Shown one piece after another: positions 10,418 to 17,452 of a stretch of DNA of 64,000 nucleotides (positions within the stretch are counted from its first letter, which is position 1; each line of letters starts with the position of its first letter). A model generated the notes under the pieces. The model made no database searches. It was not told the origin of the DNA and worked only from the letters and a program-made list of their open reading frames with translations. The position numbers and the translations under genes were made by a program. Location of the stretch: assembly GCA_937146805.1 (NCBI GenBank), contig CAKZRR010000017.1, positions 62,001 to 126,000 on the forward strand. The letters are read 5' to 3'. Origin of the DNA: an uncultured Owenweeksia sp. Its GTDB lineage: Bacteria > Bacteroidota > Bacteroidia > Flavobacteriales > Schleiferiaceae.

Positions 10418-11014
10418 ATGTTTCTCGAAAATCCGATAAATACTCACAAAAATACTGGCTGGATAGAAGTCATTTGCGGATCCATGTTTTCGGGTAAAAC
10501 CGAAGAGTTGATTCGCAGATTAAAAAGGGCGCAATTTGCGCAGCAGTCGGTAGAAATTTTTAAACCTTTGGTAGATACACGCTATGCCGAAGAGGATGTG
10601 GTAAGCCACGATCAAAACTCTATACGATGCACGCCCGTAGAAAGCAGTTCTAATATTTTGCTGCTGGCCGATGGCGTAGATGTGGTGGGTTTAGATGAGG
10701 CTCAATTTTTTGATGAAGGAATTGTAGAGGTGTGTAACAAATTGGCCAATAGCGGAAGTAGAGTGATTGTAGCCGGATTGGATATGGATTTTAAAGGGAA
10801 ACCTTTTGGCCCAATGCCCAATTTAATGGCCACGGCTGAGTACGTTACCAAGGTACATGCTATTTGCGTAAAAACGGGAAATTTGGCGCATCATTCGCAT
10901 CGTAAAAATGCCAACGAAAAGTTGGTAATGCTGGGCGAAGAACAGGAGTATGAACCCTTAAGTAGAGCCGCTTTTAATAAAGCACTGCAACAAGATGATG
11001 AGGCGAAGCCTTAA
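10418..11014 (+). CDS. tdk: Thymidine kinase (type II)
   Basis: 198 residues. The Walker A is GSMFSGKT at 21-28, and the Walker B/lid segment is DEAQFF near 93. The substrate-loop segment [15 protein letters not shown] is complete. It phosphorylates thymidine to dTMP in nucleoside salvage. The zinc-binding Cys pairs seen in most type II enzymes are degenerate: only Cys150 remains in the first site and the last one reads EPLSRAAF. The 3' end overlaps murF-alr by 20 bp, so the two are translated from one mRNA. Confidence 0.95.
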
Positions 11015-13481
11015 TGAAATAGTAAGCTTATTGCAAAGCGAGGGCTGCGAATTGGAAACTCATTTTGAGGATGATTCCAGTCCCATTACTTCGCTGCTGC
11101 TAGATAGCCGAAATGCCATTACGGGTGTTCGCAATTTGTTTTTCGCTTTACGCGGAAAAAACCACGATGGCCACCAGTATCTTAAAGATTTAAAAGAGCG
11201 GGGCGTTACCAATTTTGTGGTAGAAGAACTGCCCAAAAACACCAGCGGAGCGAACTATATTTTAGTAAAAAATAGTTTGCAGGCTTTACAGCAATTGGCA
11301 GCAGCCATTAGAGCTCAAAGCGAGGCGGAGGTAATAGCCATTACCGGCAGCAACGGAAAAACAGTTGTAAAAGAGTGGCTTTTTAAAGTAATAAATAATC
11401 AGTTTAATACTTTAAAAAGCCCCTTGAGCTATAACTCGCAAGTGGGGGTTCCATTATCGGTTTGGCCTTTAAGCAAAAGTCATCAAATGGCGGTGTTTGA
11501 AGCCGGCATTAGTAAGCCAGGCGAAATGCAGCTCTTGGAAAAAATATTAAAACCTACGTTAGGTATTTTCACCAATTTAGGTTCGGCTCATAGCGCCAAT
11601 TTTAAATCGCGCCAAGCCAAGGCGTTGCAAAAGCTGTTGCTTTTTAAAAGTTGCCAAAGCCTTATTTATTGCGAGGATCAAGAAGAAGTAGCGAGCTTAA
11701 TTACTGATTTTTGCCATCGAAATAATGTAGCAAAATGGAGCTGGAGTTTTAAAAACGCAGCCGCCACCCTATGGGTTAACAAAGTTGAGCAGCAAGCTAA
11801 TACCACGTTGCTTAGCGCGATATATAAAAGCAATACGTTTCAAATTTCGGTACCCTTTACGGATGATGCCTCCATCGAAAATGCAGTACAGGTATGGTTA
11901 AGTGGCCTTTATTTGGGCATGGATAACGAAAAGTTGAAACCTTTGTTTGCCGGTTTAGAGCCTATTGCTATGCGCCTAGAAATGAACGCGGGCTTTAATG
12001 ATAATTTGGTGATTAACGATGCCTATAATTCGGATATAGAATCGTTGAAAAACGCCTTAAACTTTTTGGATCAACAGGCGGGTAACCGCGAAAAGGTGCT
12101 GGTGCTTTCGGATATTTTACAAAACGACTTGCCTATAGATAAGTTATACGAGCAAGTACAGCGTATTTTGTTACAGCACCAGTTAAGCACGGTTATAAGT
12201 ATTGGTGCGCAAGGCGAAAAGTTTAATTGGGCCAAAGAGCTAAATGTGGTGAGCTATGCTGGTACAGGCGCTTTTTTAAAAAACTTGTTTGCGCTAGATA
12301 TTAAGAATAGTGCCGTGCTGCTAAAGGGCGCCCGTAGTTTTCAGTTTGAAAAAATAAGCAGCCGATTAGAGGCTAAATCGCATGAAACAGTGCTCGAAAT
12401 TAATTTGGGTAACGCGGTACGAAACCTCAATTACTTCCGCGCTAAGCTAAAACCAAGCACCAAAATAATGGCTATGGTAAAGGCCTTTTCATATGGCAGT
12501 GGAGCCTACGAAATTGCCAGTTTATTGGAGTATCATAAAGTAGATTACTTAGCTGTGGCCTATACAGACGAAGGAGTGGCTTTACGCCAAGCTGGAGTAA
12601 CGGTGCCTATTATGGTGCTAAATGCTGAGGTTTCATCGTTTGCCGATTTATTGAATTACCACTTGGAACCTGAGATATATAGCCAAACGCAATTACATTC
12701 TTTCAGTACGTTTTTAAGCAGGCAAGGCCAAATTTCAGATTATCCCATTCATGTAAAACTGGAAACGGGTATGCACCGTTTGGGTTTTGAAAGAGAGGAT
12801 TTAACCAAACTATTAAACTTTTTAAAAACAGATACACACGTGAAGGTGGCGAGTGTGTTTTCGCATTTAGCCGCTAGTGATAACCCCAGCCATAAGGCGT
12901 TTACACTAGGTCAAATTAATGCTTTCGCGGAAATGAAGCATTACCTTGAAAAGGAGTTGGAGCAACCCTTTTTGACGCATATTTTGAACTCATCGGGTAT
13001 AAGCAGTTTTGCCGATGCCCAGTTTGATATGGTACGCTTGGGTATTGGTTTATACGGAATAAGTGATGATGTAGAAGTGCAGAAACACCTCAAAGTGGTG
13101 AGCTCGCTTAAAGCTACTGTATCTCAAATACGGAAAGTAAAAAAAGGCGAAAGCGTGGGCTATGGGCGAGCTTTTGTAGCCGCTAAAGAGTGCCAAATAG
13201 CCGTAATAAGTATTGGCTATGCCGATGGATTTAGACGAAGCCTAGGCGAAGGTATTGGCTCGGTAATAATTAAGGGTTTACGCTACCCAGTAGTGGGTAA
13301 GGTGTGCATGGATATGTGCATGATTAATGTTACAGATGGCAATGTGGAAGAAGGTGATGTAGTAGAAATTTTTGGTGCCCACCTCTCTATATACGAGCTC
13401 GCCAAAACTATGCAAACCATACCGTATGAGGTGCTTACAGGAGTTTCGCAACGGGTAAAACGGGTGTATTTAACGAGTTAG
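10995..13481 (+). CDS. murF-alr: Bifunctional UDP-MurNAc-tripeptide:D-Ala-D-Ala ligase / alanine racemase
   Basis: 828 residues, a fusion that is standard in Bacteroidota. The MurF half (about 1-450) has the Mur-ligase P-loop ITGSNGKT at 116-123, followed by the ligase C-terminal domain with NDAYNSD. The Alr half (about 455-828) has the pyridoxal-phosphate Lys496 in [29 protein letters not shown] with the second catalytic Tyr, and GYADGFRR. It makes D-Ala and joins D-Ala-D-Ala to the peptidoglycan precursor in the cytoplasm. It overlaps tdk by 20 bp. It is the last + strand gene before the retron, with no clear terminator. Confidence 0.95.
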
Positions 13482-13550
13482 TGACTTGGGGTTATTCCTC
13501 GACTTGTAATGGATGTATTTTTAAGTGTCCAGTGTAACGTTTTTCTAAGT

Positions 13551-14423
13551 TTAAATTTTTGAATTAGTTCCGTGTGGGCTTTTCATTTCAGCTATTTTTT
13601 TTACATACTTTATTCGCTGAAGATGCCCATTTCTAGAGGTTTCTTTAATTGTTTTGTCAACTGAACGTTCAAATGTGTGTGGCAATGGTGTGATTCCGTT
13701 GTTTTTAACCTGAATACCTGTAACTTTTGGGTTAAATGTACAGTAGTGTGTCTTTTCAAAATTTATTTTCAAACCACGATTGCGTAATTCATCTAAAATT
13801 CCGTTTGTTTTATTTTTGAAGTCAATTGGACTTGAGATAGTAATATCATCAACATATACTGAAACAGCTAAACCTTCCATTTTTAATTTTTCAAAAAGGT
13901 CTCCACAACTATGATAAACTACTAAAGAAGCCAAAAATGAAGAGGTAGGACAACCTTGAGGAATTGCACCTTCTTTTGTTGAAATTCGAGTAATTAATTT
14001 TGCAACATCTGGATAAAACCCTTCTTTTCTAAGTGCTTTTTCAACACTTGTAAAATGGATAGAAGGATAAAAATCTTTTAAATCTGTCAGAAAGAAGTAT
14101 TTATTCCCTTGATGAAAACGAGCGTTTAATACGGCATCTTTTTTCTTTATTCCGCCAAAAAAGTATTCAGGTAATTTGATTTGGTATAAAACATTAATCA
14201 ACAATTTAGATTGTACTTCTTTTAATTTTTTTACAGGAGCATTTATCGGTCTTGTTAAAGCAACTCCATTTTCAAATCTTGGTTGTTTTTTTTCGTCCGT
14301 TTTAGGTTCGTCCCAATTTCTGTAAAATTTTCTTTCATTTAAATCAAGAGAAGAGGATAACTTGACTAGCAAATTTTTATCAATTTTTAAAGTATAAGCT
14401 ATGTCTTTTATCCTTTTTTTCAT
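13551..14423 (-). CDS. Retron-type reverse transcriptase
   Basis: 290 residues. Visible RT features are the retron region X motif NAxxH at 100-104 (NARFH), motif A DLKDFYPSI with the catalytic Asp at 114, and PQGCPTSSFLASLV from 155. The active-site YVDD is at 190-193 and the retron region Y motif VTG at 234-236. NAxxH and VTG separate retron RTs from group II intron and DGR enzymes. In retrons this enzyme primes from a 2'-OH of a G in its own ncRNA and makes a branched RNA-DNA. The tail after VTG is short (54 residues) and ends KSPHGTNSKI, so the thumb may be slightly truncated. It is the last gene of the - strand operon ncRNA - small protein - HTH - RT, 10 bp after the HTH gene. The region is more AT-rich than its neighbours, which fits acquisition by transfer. 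Confidence 0.93.
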   Translation of the reverse strand: MKKRIKDIAYTLKIDKNLLVKLSSSLDLNERKFYRNWDEPKTDEKKQPRFENGVALTRPINAPVKKLKEVQSKLLINVLYQIKLPEYFFGGIKKKDAVLNARFHQGNKYFFLTDLKDFYPSIHFTSVEKALRKEGFYPDVAKLITRISTKEGAIPQGCPTSSFLASLVVYHSCGDLFEKLKMEGLAVSVYVDDITISSPIDFKNKTNGILDELRNRGLKINFEKTHYCTFNPKVTGIQVKNNGITPLPHTFERSVDKTIKETSRNGHLQRIKYVKKIAEMKSPHGTNSKI

Positions 14424-14433
14424 TTATGAATTT

Positions 14434-14724
14434 TTATGAAATGAAAACATCACTTATCAAACCTTTGATTGAAGGTTCTAACATTCTGTATGCATCTTGT
14501 TTAGCTTCTGCAATATCTTCTTTGTCAAGTGAAAAGAAAACTAAAACAGGCATTGGAATAGAAAGAGCACTAGCAATTTGCTTTAGAATACTTAAAGTAG
14601 GCTCTTTTCTACCTTTCTCAATTGAGGAAAGATAAGATTGCGACAAACCACATTGGACAGCAAAATCGGTTTGTTTTAAACCTTTTTGCTGCCTTAAGTC
14701 TTTTATGGCATTACCTATATTCAT
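14434..14724 (-). CDS. Xre-family HTH protein of the retron
   Basis: 96 residues. An Xre/Cro HTH covers about residues 3-60 (IKDLRQQKGLKQTDFA, then CGLSQSYLSSIEKGRKEPT). A 35-residue tail ending LEPSIKGLISDVFIS may form a partner-binding helix. It lies between the small-protein gene (38 bp upstream) and the RT (10 bp downstream), so all three are probably one transcript. A small HTH protein as the RT partner is what I remember for type VI in the published retron classification. Its role may be autorepression, for example at the inverted repeat at the operon promoter, or part of the retron complex. It could also be a plain regulator. Confidence 0.88.
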   Translation of the reverse strand: MNIGNAIKDLRQQKGLKQTDFAVQCGLSQSYLSSIEKGRKEPTLSILKQIASALSIPMPVLVFFSLDKEDIAEAKQDAYRMLEPSIKGLISDVFIS

Positions 14725-14762
14725 AATAATATTTGGTTTTTGAAAAAAATGAGAAGTGGGAA

Positions 14763-14999
14763 TTAGAATAACTTAGTGATATCGTCAACTCCGAAGAATT
14801 TCAGAAATCTAAGAAGTAGGGAGAGAACTTTCAAAAGTTCGTCTGGACTATTGTCCGTTTCGTTGTTTGACATCTCTTCCAACTCTATTAAAATTGCATT
14901 TAATAAAGCTTTATCCTCTTCCGAGAACGCGTACCCGCTCTTAGCGAGTAATGACTTCACTCCACTTTGGAGTTGGTCAATTCCGTGTTTGTGTTTCAT
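14763..14999 (-). CDS. Small protein of the retron operon, candidate effector
   Basis: 78 residues, no family recognised. The N-terminus is basic (MKHKHGID), the middle acidic (IELEEMSNNETDNSPDE). The C-terminal third is a strongly hydrophobic amphipathic stretch (LLKVLSLLLRFLKFFGV) of the kind seen in small membrane-active toxins. It is the first coding gene after the ncRNA. The 12 bases directly before its AUG are complementary to the ncRNA 3' hairpin, so translation looks to be under control of the retron RNA. Its position and control argue that it is the effector, with the RT and HTH as keeper and sensor. The ATG at 14997-14999 has no Shine-Dalgarno sequence. Confidence 0.75.
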   Translation of the reverse strand: MKHKHGIDQLQSGVKSLLAKSGYAFSEEDKALLNAILIELEEMSNNETDNSPDELLKVLSLLLRFLKFFGVDDITKLF

Positions 15000-15080
15000 A
15001 CTGTATCGTATTTATTAATTAAAAATGGGAGCACTATGCTTCCTGCTTAATTAGCTGCGTGAACCCATATAGGATACAGT
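15000..15080 (-). promoter_or_regulatory. Anti-start pairing between ncRNA 3' hairpin and the small-protein start
   Basis: On the - strand the ncRNA segment at 15080-15069 (ACUGUAUCCUAU) is complementary to the leader segment at 15011-15000 (AUACGAUACAGU) at 11 of 12 positions, including 8 in a row. The leader segment touches the AUG at 14999. The same ncRNA segment can also fold locally as the UAGGA-CUGUA-UCCUA hairpin (15083-15069). The two structures exclude each other, as in a translational switch. Confidence 0.6.
15014..15054 (-). promoter_or_regulatory. Leader hairpin upstream of the retron small protein
   Basis: Between the ncRNA end and the AUG the leader can fold as a hairpin. TAATTAA (15053-15047) pairs with TTAATTA (15022-15016), and inside it GGA-GCA pairs with TGC-TCC (15043-15028, one bulged A, 3-base loop). 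Its 5' arm contains the second copy of the TTAAGCAGGAA element. Confidence 0.45.
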
Positions 15081-15109
15081 CCTACGACACTTCTCGATTT
15101 CCTGCTTAA
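15040..15109 (-). repeat. 11-nt direct repeat in retron ncRNA and leader
   Basis: TTAAGCAGGAA occurs at 15109-15099 inside the ncRNA (in the part that should be copied into DNA) and again at 15050-15040 in the leader. A DNA copy of the first would be complementary to the second. Confidence 0.7.
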
Positions 15110-15324
15110 ATAAAAAAAAACAAAACCTCTAATACTGATTAAATTCCTCTTTAAGCAAATTAGTAAGGGGTTGAATAACCTTAAAAGCTGTCTTCTGTCC
15201 ATCTTCTCTTTCGAGTTGTACATTAGTTCAGTCGTTAGGTTTCTTGTTGCCTTTACAAAGACCCACTACGGGTGGAGGGAAAAACCCTCTTCAATAGTTT
15301 TAAAATAAAAACTCTTGGGTTCAC
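15059..15324 (-). ncRNA. Retron msr-msd RNA
   Basis: About 266 nt, non-coding, directly upstream of the retron genes. The ends are a perfect 9-bp inverted repeat that fits retron a1 (15324-15316, GTGAACCCA) and a2 (15067-15059, TGGGTTCAC). Next to a1 come three short msr-like hairpins: AGTTTT/AAAACT (15313-15296), GAGGG/CCCTC with a T5 loop (15289-15275), and ACCC/GGGT (15273-15261). A longer msd-like hairpin lies at about 15173-15121, with a CTAAT/ATTAG core and an inner TTAAA/TTTAA stem. A small hairpin UAGGA/UCCUA precedes a2. G residues right after a1 could serve as the branch point. The msr/msd border and exact ends are not certain. No sequence family was recognised; the call rests on structure and position. 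Confidence 0.75.
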
Positions 15325-15352
15325 TACACAAACATTTCAAAGAACTACAATG

Positions 15353-15382
15353 CGAATATACATATATTATTTCTGTGAGCAA
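15353..15382 (-). promoter_or_regulatory. Retron promoter (-33 TTG, -7 TATATTCG)
   Basis: On the - strand TTG (15382-15380) is followed after 19 bases by TATATTCG (15360-15353). This matches the Bacteroidota TTG-N19-TAnnTTTG pattern with one mismatch. Transcription would start near 15346, about 20 nt before a1 of the ncRNA. Confidence 0.6.
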
Positions 15383-15439
15383 TAAAATAGGCGAAAAAGA
15401 TTAGATTAATCACCATCAGAAATAATTTGATTTTATTGC
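15379..15439 (-). repeat. 10-bp inverted repeat spanning the retron -33 box, possible operator
   Basis: GCAATAAAAT (15379-15388) and ATTTTATTGC (15430-15439) are exact reverse complements. The first copy contains the promoter's -33 TTG. A second, 6-bp inverted repeat (CCATCA 15413-15418 / TGATGG 15441-15446) overlaps the same span. Binding by the operon's Xre-type HTH protein would block the promoter; this is inference. Confidence 0.45.
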
Positions 15440-15514
15440 TTGATGGAGGTAGAGTATTGTAAATGAAACTTGTCTTAACCCCAAAATACCGCTTATTACC
15501 TCGGTTTCTCCCAC

Positions 15515-15550
15515 AAAAAAAATCCCCAAACTACCGAAGTAATTTGGGGA
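15515..15550 (-). terminator. Rho-independent terminator after the M1 aminopeptidase gene
   Basis: On the - strand an 8-bp stem TCCCCAAA/TTTGGGGA (15543-15550 with 15523-15530) with a 12-base loop is followed by eight T (15522-15515). It ends the aminopeptidase transcript and marks the upstream border of the retron. The stretch 15383-15514 holds the retron inverted repeats and otherwise nothing I can name. Confidence 0.92.
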
Positions 15551-15577
15551 CACTTGAAAAGTTAAATGCGCTAAGCT

Positions 15578-17452
15578 TTATTCGTGACCTAAAAGTTTGT
15601 CCATTGTTTCGCGGCTTACCGCATGGTAATTAGGGCGTGCTTTGGCATAAATATCATTGGCCATAGTAGCTTTATCGGCATTAAGCAAAGCTTCGTAGGT
15701 TGGGGTTAAGAACTTTCTTCGTCCTACCGATACTAAAAAGGCTTCTACCCTTGGGTAAACGGCTTGGTAACCCGCTTTAATAGTAGGTTGAAACCAAGCG
15801 GCTACAATTTCGTTGTTACCGCTTTGGGTAAAACCATACCAGCCGTCAAGCTGCATTAACTGTTCGGTGCTGGTACCTTCGGGCAATGAGTTTATAAAGT
15901 GCAACCACTCGTGCGTACTCCAATTGCCTGTAAGCTCAACATTGGGCTGGGTGCCGTTGCTTGTAAAGTTGCTTAACTCGGTATTTACCAAAGCAAATTT
16001 ATTAGAGTGTACCTCGGGTAAGTTATCAGGAATACCGGGTTTATAAATCCAGTCATTGGCTTTAATGGTGGTGTATTGCTCTTCGCTTAATAAGTTCTCT
16101 TTTATATAAACGATAAAGTCTTCGGTGGTCATTACTTTAAACTTATTGGTTTCGAAGTAATTTTTCAAGAAAACATCAAAAGCATCTCTACCCACTGTCT
16201 CTTCAATTAAACGTAAAAAGAAATAGCCTTTATCGTAAGGAATACTGGTAACGCCATCGTCTGGGTTACGGCCTTGTAATTCTAGTTTTAGTTTGGTGTC
16301 GTTAGGTACTTCTACCAACATGCGAGCGGCATCTTCTACCAGTCCATCACGTGTAAGGCTAGCCAGCATTTCGGCATAATCGTGACCGTAAACTTCCTCC
16401 ATAATGCGGTGTTCAAAGTACACGGTAAATCCTTCGTTTAACCAAAAGTCGTCCCATGTAGCATTGGTAACCAAGTTACCGCTCCAGCTATGAGCCAATT
16501 CGTGCGCTACTAGGCTCACCAATGATCGGTCTCCTGCCAAAATAGTGGGAGTAGCAAAGGTTAAACGTGGGTTTTCCATTCCCCCAAAAGGGAAAGAAGG
16601 AGGTAAAACAATAATATCGTAACGGCCCCAAGCGTAGGGTCCGTAAAGGCCTTCGGCCGCTTTTATCATATCTTCTAAATCGGCAAACTCATACACCGAA
16701 GTATCTAATAAAGAAGTTTCGGCATATACACCTGCACGGTCGCTAATAGCTTTAAAATGCACATCTCCCACCGACATGGCCAATAAATAAGAAGGAATAG
16801 GCTGTGGCATGCTAAACTCATAAACACCCGTTTCGTTTTTAACTTGTGGGTTTTCGGCACTCATCAAGGCAATCATATTTTTAGGCACGGTTACCGTAGC
16901 GTTGTAGGTAAAACGAATACCTGGGCTATCTTGACAAGGAACCCATGAGCGTGCCAAAATAGCTTGGGACTGCGTAAATAAGAAAGGTGCATTTTTGCCA
17001 GCAGTTTGTTCCGCATCTAGCCATTGTAGGGCACGGGCGTTTTTGCCAGTTTCGTAGGCAATGCTCACTTTTTTAGAGCCAGCTGTAATAGGAATAGCAA
17101 CGGGCTTGCCTTTATGCTCATCAAAATCGCCTACATTAAACTTGGCTTTTACGCCATCAACTCTTACCTCAAATATTTTAAGGTCAAATATGTCGAAAAC
17201 AATTTCGTTAGCGCTATCGCTGGTTTCAATATCCCATTCGGCAGTAGCCATGATTTTTTTCTGATCAAAATCTACTATCGCGCTCCAGTTAAGGTGCGTA
17301 ACTTTTGCCATACTGGGGTTGGCGTAGGTATGCACATCGGTGGCGGAAGCAGGTTTTTCGGTAGTCGTGTTGTCAGTAGTCACGGTGTTGTTGTTTTGTT
17401 GGCACGAAAAAAGTAAAGACAAGGCGGTGAAACCTAAAAGGATACGTTTCAT
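15578..17452 (-). CDS. M1 family metallo-aminopeptidase, lipoprotein
   Basis: 624 residues. The N-terminus is a lipoprotein signal with lipobox LLFSC (Cys17), followed by an Asn/Thr-rich linker. The M1 signature is complete: the exopeptidase motif GGMEN, the zinc motif HELAHSW, and NEGF with the third zinc ligand 19 residues later. The C-terminal ARM-like part resembles leukotriene A4 hydrolase-type aminopeptidases. It would trim N-terminal residues from peptides in the periplasm or at the outer membrane. It is transcribed divergently from the holin-like gene and ends at a strong terminator. Confidence 0.93.
   Translation of the reverse strand: MKRILLGFTALSLLFSCQQNNNTVTTDNTTTEKPASATDVHTYANPSMAKVTHLNWSAIVDFDQKKIMATAEWDIETSDSANEIVFDIFDLKIFEVRVDGVKAKFNVGDFDEHKGKPVAIPITAGSKKVSIAYETGKNARALQWLDAEQTAGKNAPFLFTQSQAILARSWVPCQDSPGIRFTYNATVTVPKNMIALMSAENPQVKNETGVYEFSMPQPIPSYLLAMSVGDVHFKAISDRAGVYAETSLLDTSVYEFADLEDMIKAAEGLYGPYAWGRYDIIVLPPSFPFGGMENPRLTFATPTILAGDRSLVSLVAHELAHSWSGNLVTNATWDDFWLNEGFTVYFEHRIMEEVYGHDYAEMLASLTRDGLVEDAARMLVEVPNDTKLKLELQGRNPDDGVTSIPYDKGYFFLRLIEETVGRDAFDVFLKNYFETNKFKVMTTEDFIVYIKENLLSEEQYTTIKANDWIYKPGIPDNLPEVHSNKFALVNTELSNFTSNGTQPNVELTGNWSTHEWLHFINSLPEGTSTEQLMQLDGWYGFTQSGNNEIVAAWFQPTIKAGYQAVYPRVEAFLVSVGRRKFLTPTYEALLNADKATMANDIYAKARPNYHAVSRETMDKLLGHE

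Follow-up and report, generated by a model that had tools for sequence, protein, structure and literature searches.

RESULTS

A type VI retron locus and its relatives

The window, meaning the whole stretch of 64,000 nucleotides analyzed here, carries on its minus strand a presumed noncoding RNA (ncRNA) region at about 15350-15012, followed by three genes in the order SP-HTH-RT. SP is a small protein of 78 amino acids (aa) (14763..14999; PADLOC SP_VI, E value of 4.4e-8), followed by a 96-aa HTH protein (14434..14724; PADLOC HTH_VI, E value of 5.2e-31; Pfam HTH_3) and a 290-aa retron reverse transcriptase (RT) (13551..14423). All features described below lie on the same strand. The top PADLOC match of the RT, among the best 25 listed from 66 families, is PDLC02952 RT_VI (3.1e-61), and the protein contains VYVDDI (the YxDD active site), NARFH, and VTGIQV; we take NAxxH, VTG, and YxDD together to be retron RT motifs. 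Because SP, HTH, and RT match PADLOC SP_VI, HTH_VI, and RT_VI, the locus is, judged by its proteins, a type VI retron, in what is reportedly the classification of Mestre et al. 2020. A search of Rfam gave no match in the window at the gathering threshold and no retron family at an E value of ≤5 in 13400-15600; an Rfam match is no requirement for retron membership, and its absence is no disproof.

The structure predicted for SP has three helices (mean pLDDT, 74), and its comparison with the PDB gave a best E value of 1.2 and none at 0.001. Pfam searches of 42 SP members found no family in more than three of them. Among 24 stretches of viral contigs, no SP relative was confirmed; for the RT, phage records gave no match at 1e-20 and plasmids gave two records, with 39.5% and 36.1% identity. 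The retron stands alone between housekeeping-like genes (window 10995-15577), which we take to be an 828-aa MurF/alanine-racemase-like open reading frame (ORF) and a 624-aa M1-peptidase-like ORF. Three genomes of the same genus had no RT match at an E value of ≤1e-40.

Relatives were collected by an RT alignment scan of 84,980 species genomes, which gave 99 relatives, the best 80 of which were kept. Among these best 80 of 99, the nearest ten all carry SP-HTH-RT in the gene order of the window; nine of their RTs are 73 to 84% identical to that of the window, and the tenth (L075) is 47% identical. Another 42 loci have an RT with a recognizable SP, and an HTH gene was found in 40 of them. The window, the nearest ten, and these 42 make up the 53 systems (RT plus SP) analyzed here, with HTH in 51 and not found in L088 and L105. 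Two alignments were used, A3 with the window and the nearest ten and A2 with the 21 systems of a second clade (clade 2). The profile search covered loci L031-L060 and L066-L145; exact copies of later loci (L031, L034, L035, L036, L040, and L050), the window's own genome (L049), and L038, which is 95% identical to L113 and has the same helix, were left out. The SP start was shifted to an ATG before scoring in 11 loci, and the position of the boxA-like element described below, termed the box, was set by hand in L075, L109, and L133. An HTH_VI search of 198 relatives was positive in all 14 control genomes, and therefore the analysis relied on just the three hits below 1e-27.

In an RT tree of 84 rows, the window falls in a clade of 11, and the other systems are distributed among many Bacteroidota families and some Ignavibacteriota. 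L079, whose contig is labeled as a Clostridia MAG, groups with Bacteroidota retrons in this tree, perhaps owing to a binning error.

Layout of the presumed ncRNA and its leader elements

Read from 5' to 3', the region begins with a -7-like promoter element, a boxA-like element, the 5' arm of a long-range helix that we call O, and an a1-like arm, continues with hairpins, a variable stretch, the first copy of a GCAGG repeat, and an a2-like arm, and ends with the second GCAGG copy with its hairpin, the SP AUG, and the O 3' arm inside the SP codons.

The -7-like element TATATTCG (15353..15360), just upstream of the ncRNA, has one mismatch to TANNTTTG, presumably the promoter element named -7 in Bacteroidota. 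Of 51 systems, 41 have an exact TANNTTTG in the 60 nucleotides (nt) preceding the box, 26 of them at -16; the window is among the 10 that do not. Since the element precedes the box so often and is found between box+20 and the SP AUG in only 6 of the 51, SP probably comes from the ncRNA transcript. A conserved stretch at about 15365-15390, upstream of that element, reads TTATTGCTCACAG and, in clade 2, TTATTAACTGTCAG; it is perhaps a -33 region or an operator for the HTH protein. Near it lies an 11-nt perfect inverted repeat (15378-15388/15430-15440).

The boxA-like element AGUUCUUUGAAA (15335..15346) starts the ncRNA, 345 nt before the SP AUG, and a box (TTCTTTG or CTCTTTG) was assigned in 51 of the 53 systems. 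GTTCTTT[A/G] also stands 65 to 121 nt before the 16S gene in 18 of 23 rRNA loci of the same order (L146-L169), and some rRNA leaders of the order carry AGTTCTTTGAAA letter for letter. The window element has one mismatch to GYTCTTTAANA, the gamma-proteobacterial boxA consensus given in PMC5725501. These likenesses suggest possible Nus antitermination or a Nus-based control of the retron.

The a1-like arm GUGAACCCA (15316..15324) and the a2-like arm UGGGUUCAC (15059..15067), recovered by the repeat search, by the swapping test, and in A3, form an inner helix. Over 51 systems, own arms scored 21.75 versus 16.67 (standard deviation [sd], 0.43) for swapped arms, a level reached in 0 of 20,000 swaps. 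The inner helix presumably represents the a1/a2 inverted repeats that bound the ncRNA and would be used as such by the RT; retron RT-DNA is primed from a guanosine 2'-OH, as described in PMC8989520. Three msr-like hairpins are predicted downstream of the a1-like arm by the minimum-energy fold and aligned in A3, namely, hairpin 1 (15296..15313), hairpin 2 with GAGGG/CCCUC (15275..15289), and hairpin 3 with ACCC/GGGU (15261..15273). A variable stretch follows (15068..15260), the presumed template (msd), whose extent we infer from length variation among homologues and from its place relative to the a2-like arm. The two copies of the GCAGG repeat (direct repeat D1), copy 1 at 15099..15112 and copy 2 in the SP leader at 15040..15053, flank the a2-like arm; GCAGG is unchanged at either position throughout the 11 sequences of A3, copy 1 is almost invariant in clade 2, and the copies are possible protein-binding sites. 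From the a2-like arm to the AUG there are 59 nt in the window and 37 to 109 nt (median, 63) in 38 systems, and the SP leader with its start codon is enclosed between O and the inner helix. For a retron type without an Rfam match here, the analysis thereby supplies candidate ncRNA boundaries.

A covarying helix between the ncRNA 5' end and the first SP codons

The O helix joins 15334-15326 (UGUUUGUGU), at the ncRNA 5' end just after the boxA-like element, to 14994-14986 (ACACAAACA), inside SP codons 2-5, and both arms were recovered by the repeat search, the swapping test, and covariation. All O cells in A3 are paired, with compensatory changes in three of nine pairs (four cells). Both sides changed together relative to the window in L068 (5' arm UGUUUGUUU, SP arm AAACAAACA) and in L075 (5' arm UGAAUGUUU, SP arm AAACAUUCA). 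The change in L068 is a compensated G-C to U-A, and this locus is nested among G-C bearers in the RT tree (90/82); therefore, it is likely a separate event from that of L075. In clade 2, 8 of the 12 pairs of O show double changes, as do 4 of the 8 in the inner helix, and 86.5% of the O cells are paired, with failures mostly in the outermost pairs. For the O and inner helices jointly, the covariation in A2 is 0.362 versus 0.191 (sd, 0.014) in shuffled alignments, and sliding the register by one to three columns lowers the pairing from 91% to 25 to 45%. Two synonymous codon changes in L133 (CAA to CAG and AAC to AAT) are both matched by Watson-Crick changes in the noncoding arm, which places the constraint on the RNA. 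By these alignments, evolution demonstrably keeps the O pairing while changing its letters.

The swapping test covered 51 of the 53 systems, excluding L039 and L087, which are without a box. Own O arms scored 20.36 versus 14.93 (sd, 0.40) for swapped ones, with 0 of 20,000 permutations reaching the own value. For shuffles within each locus, the 53 loci were thinned to 43, of which 41 have a box; the combined z was 17.2, and 29 of the 41 thinned loci were at a P value of ≤0.05. The corresponding controls stayed near zero, with a z of 0.3 when the O 5' arm was scored against SP nt 46-93 and of -0.4 when the SP start was scored against the 30 nt of ncRNA that follow the arm. In the window by itself, O is not striking, being reached by 189 of 5000 shuffles, and the window lies outside the 29 significant loci.

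A geometry rule, which itself demands the first codons, describes 44 of the 51 own pairs (34 different helix sequences), with the 3' arm within SP nt +3 to +30, versus 760 of 2550 foreign pairs (30%). The seven that depart from it comprise L084, L092, L102, and L105, with 7-bp helices, and L106, L111, and L115, with none convincing; L095 and L096 conform and are weak, in that 20 and 25 of 50 foreign starts, respectively, pair at least as well. These last five loci (L095, L096, L106, L111, and L115) all have SP-HTH-RT and a box with no convincing O helix, which may reflect another register, another start, or loss.

Thirteen HTH-bearing loci were held out (L041, L042, L116, L119, L124, L127, L128, L130, L135, L136, L141, L142, and L145). 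In this set, which includes several close kin of loci in the earlier tests and, for L128 and L124, a start picked by hand from two candidates, own pairs scored 20.15 versus 15.10 (sd, 0.84), with 0 of 20,000 as high; L042, L128, and L135 are without a good O helix, and L041 has only a G-U-rich one. Fifteen systems without HTH (L032, L076, L078-L083, L085, L086, L089-L091, L098, and L104), several of them near-copies of one another and scored with box variants permitted, gave 21.10 versus 18.49 (sd, 0.54), again with 0 of 20,000, L076 and L078 being weak. This scoring omitted L094, L097, L101, L033, and L037, and L123 was left unscored. The HTH-less systems have a related RT (L032, RT_VI, 1.1e-77) and a different basic small protein, e.g., KKKKKPSKRGKKA; in several of them a hairpin, GCCUUC...GAAGGC, lies inside the ORF and would compete with the O 3' arm. 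L003, outside all tests, has UUACACGAG after its box, which pairs with CUCGUGUAG at nt 29 of a small ORF.

In predicted folds, the pairing probability of O is 0.98 in the window, with a mean of 0.81 over the 51 systems; it is 0.12 in L068, the covariation case, and ≤0.10 in L096, L106, L111, and L115. Holding the O 5' arm unpaired is predicted to cost 7.4 kcal/mol in the window.

Proposed exclusion between ncRNA folding and SP translation

On balance, we favor the reading that the ncRNA and SP lie on one transcript, in which the O helix makes RT-competent folding and SP translation mutually exclusive. In the state folded for reverse transcription, the SP start would be held in a long-range duplex, and SP translation would be poor. 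In the other state, ribosomes translating the first codons of SP would undo the O helix and leave the ncRNA 5' end loosened. Removal or unfolding of that end, whether by cleavage, RT loss, or altered Nus-factor binding, would in turn raise SP synthesis. From the helix we infer exclusion as such, and control might run in either direction, from ncRNA folding to SP translation or the reverse. Antisense pairing within the first five codons classically blocks 30S binding. The O 3' arm lies inside this range in the window's clade, at SP nt +6 to +14, and at about +19 to +30 in clade 2; the clade 2 arm, being beyond five codons, may affect elongation, or it may be the ribosomes that affect the O helix.

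The same helix could be a structural clamp only, lengthening the a1/a2 duplex for RT priming, with an incidental overlap with SP codons and no translation control. Its position directly outside the inner helix, 1 nt away on the 5' side in the window, fits such a role, as does the design of canonical retron ncRNAs, which PMC8989520 describes as insulated by a1/a2 repeats beside the priming guanosine. The O 3' arm, however, is separated from the a2-like arm, by 64 nt in the window and by 45 to 128 nt in 38 systems, and it falls in the first codons of a small ORF in three groups of systems despite the free leader, so that we regard a clamp without translation control as unlikely. Improbable, in our view, is a processing signal, by which a double-strand RNase would cut the O and inner helices, free the ncRNA, and destroy the SP message. 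Long-range helices do flank the ncRNA, but O measures only about 7 to 12 bp, which is short for RNase III, and with a cut inside the SP codons no processed transcript would be able to yield SP.

A second pairing directly before the SP start codon

The initial annotation of this DNA had singled out another pairing, between an anti-start segment ACUGUAUCCUAU (15069..15080), which ends 1 nt before the a2-like arm, and the leader segment AUACGAUACAGU (15000..15011), directly before the SP AUG. The inverted repeat is there as described (12 nt, 92% complementary), with 11 of 12 pairs and one C-C mismatch, ending at the AUG of the 78-aa ORF, and the local hairpin ascribed to the same ncRNA bases is readable as AGGA-CUGUA-UCCU. 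Dinucleotide shuffles of the ncRNA gave 11 of 12 pairs in 1 of 5000 cases for exactly that 12-mer and in 19 of 500 for any 12-mer from the 30 nt preceding the AUG. Ensemble prediction for the window RNA assigns this helix a probability of 0.00; imposing it on the fold costs 2.1 kcal/mol and disrupts the a1/a2-like helix.

Paired changes on the two sides, which had been named as the evidence to look for, are absent from the 11 sequences of A3 (0 pairs changed on both sides). The cells of this helix are paired in 82.5% versus 82.1% after shuffling, and its covariation is 0.030 versus 0.051, with 481 of 500 shuffles as high. All 11 pairs are intact only in the window, L066, L067, and L070; L069, L071, and L072 have one G-U, L073 has lost one pair, and three of the 11 (L068, L074, and L075) have a broken helix. 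One-sided changes, regarded in the annotation as counterevidence, occur in part of the set, with the leader alone altered in L069, L071, L072, and L073.

Beyond A3, the leader was scored in 42 systems against the 25 nt that precede the a2-like arm. Own pairs gave 11.45 versus 9.79 (sd, 0.34) for swapped ones (0 of 20,000) and, without the window's clade, 9.95 versus 9.40 (sd, 0.32; 1043 of 20,000); in this comparison, the segments equivalent to 15069-15080 outside the clade pair little better than swapped ones. A wider test of the pre-AUG leader gave 14.82 versus 13.02 (sd, 0.31; 0 of 20,000) by swapping and a z of 4.4 against within-locus shuffles, with 8 of 43 loci, among them the window, at a P value of ≤0.05. 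Its control stretches were also raised (z of 2.6 and 3.1), and for this reason a general pre-AUG helix was not accepted despite the z of 4.4; as compared here, leaders pair upstream somewhat above expectation, without a shared covarying partner.

The 15069-15080 helix was thus rejected as a conserved control, since it shows no covariation, is broken in 3 of 11 sequences, and has little excess outside the clade; at most, it is an additional local pairing in some close relatives. What stands of the claim that the ncRNA pairs with the SP start region is that some pairing is kept, the kept contact being with codons 2-5 and not the helix originally named. The further claim that copying by the RT frees the start does not follow from this contact, because the O 5' arm lies outside the presumed template, although copying would reach 15069-15080 at its outset if the RT is primed canonically from the inner helix. 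The rarity of the exact 12-mer, its place 1 nt before the a2-like arm, and the excess of leader pairing over swaps and shuffles are outweighed by the missing covariation, the broken helices, the fading of the signal without the window's clade, the raised controls, and the predicted competition with the a1/a2-like helix, and we find it hardly credible that 15080-15069 masks the leader 15011-15000 until reverse transcription frees the SP start.

DISCUSSION

The mutual exclusion of RT-competent folding and SP translation by the O helix could be part of a larger switch, which we put forward only tentatively. The ncRNA may be a cis-acting RNA antitoxin and sensor, whose Nus-bound 5' end would clamp the start of a toxic or signaling SP and whose clamp would be held by the RT; phage-caused loss of RT-ncRNA folding, or ribosome traffic over the first SP codons, would then flip the transcript between a reverse-transcribed and a translated state. 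If true, the retron trigger would be an RNA switch on effector synthesis and not the release of a ready-made effector from an RT-ncRNA-DNA complex. In PMC12548924, retrons are described as having a toxic effector held in an RT/ncRNA/RT-DNA complex until phage infection.

Taken as a set, the O helix is supported over 80 systems with two kinds of small protein, and control of these retrons would lie partly in the RNA itself. The helix predicts which bases to change, and the system may fail in constructs in which the SP start is recoded or relocated or the ncRNA 5' end is shortened.

With the type VI retrons, the locus shares the proteins (RT_VI, HTH_VI, and SP_VI) and the order SP-HTH-RT. In the open-licence literature, we found no description of pairing between a type VI ncRNA and SP codons and nothing on how type VI retrons work. 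The mRNAs of hok-like type I toxin-antitoxin systems have long-range 5'-3' pairing, and, as in hok, a distant part of the same mRNA would hold the start of a small protein in a duplex. Unlike in hok, the distant part would here be a retron ncRNA, adjoining the presumed RT priming helix, and the toxicity of SP is hypothetical. A likeness also exists to DRT2, in which a reverse-transcribed ncRNA yields a gene: in both, by the description of DRT2 in PMC12039810, a defense RT and an ncRNA would decide whether a protein is made. The RT of DRT2 builds the gene from the ncRNA, whereas the ORF here preexists beside the ncRNA.

PMC5725501 describes boxA as repressing suhB translation in Escherichia coli and controlling a ParE-like toxin gene in C. 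koseri, and the retron resembles these leaders in having a boxA-like element in the leader of a gene, its role here being putative. In suhB, according to that source, boxA lies near the Shine-Dalgarno sequence and an RNA loop to RNA polymerase is proposed, with no RNA-RNA helix; in the retron, by contrast, the box lies 345 nt upstream of the AUG, beside an RNA-RNA helix.
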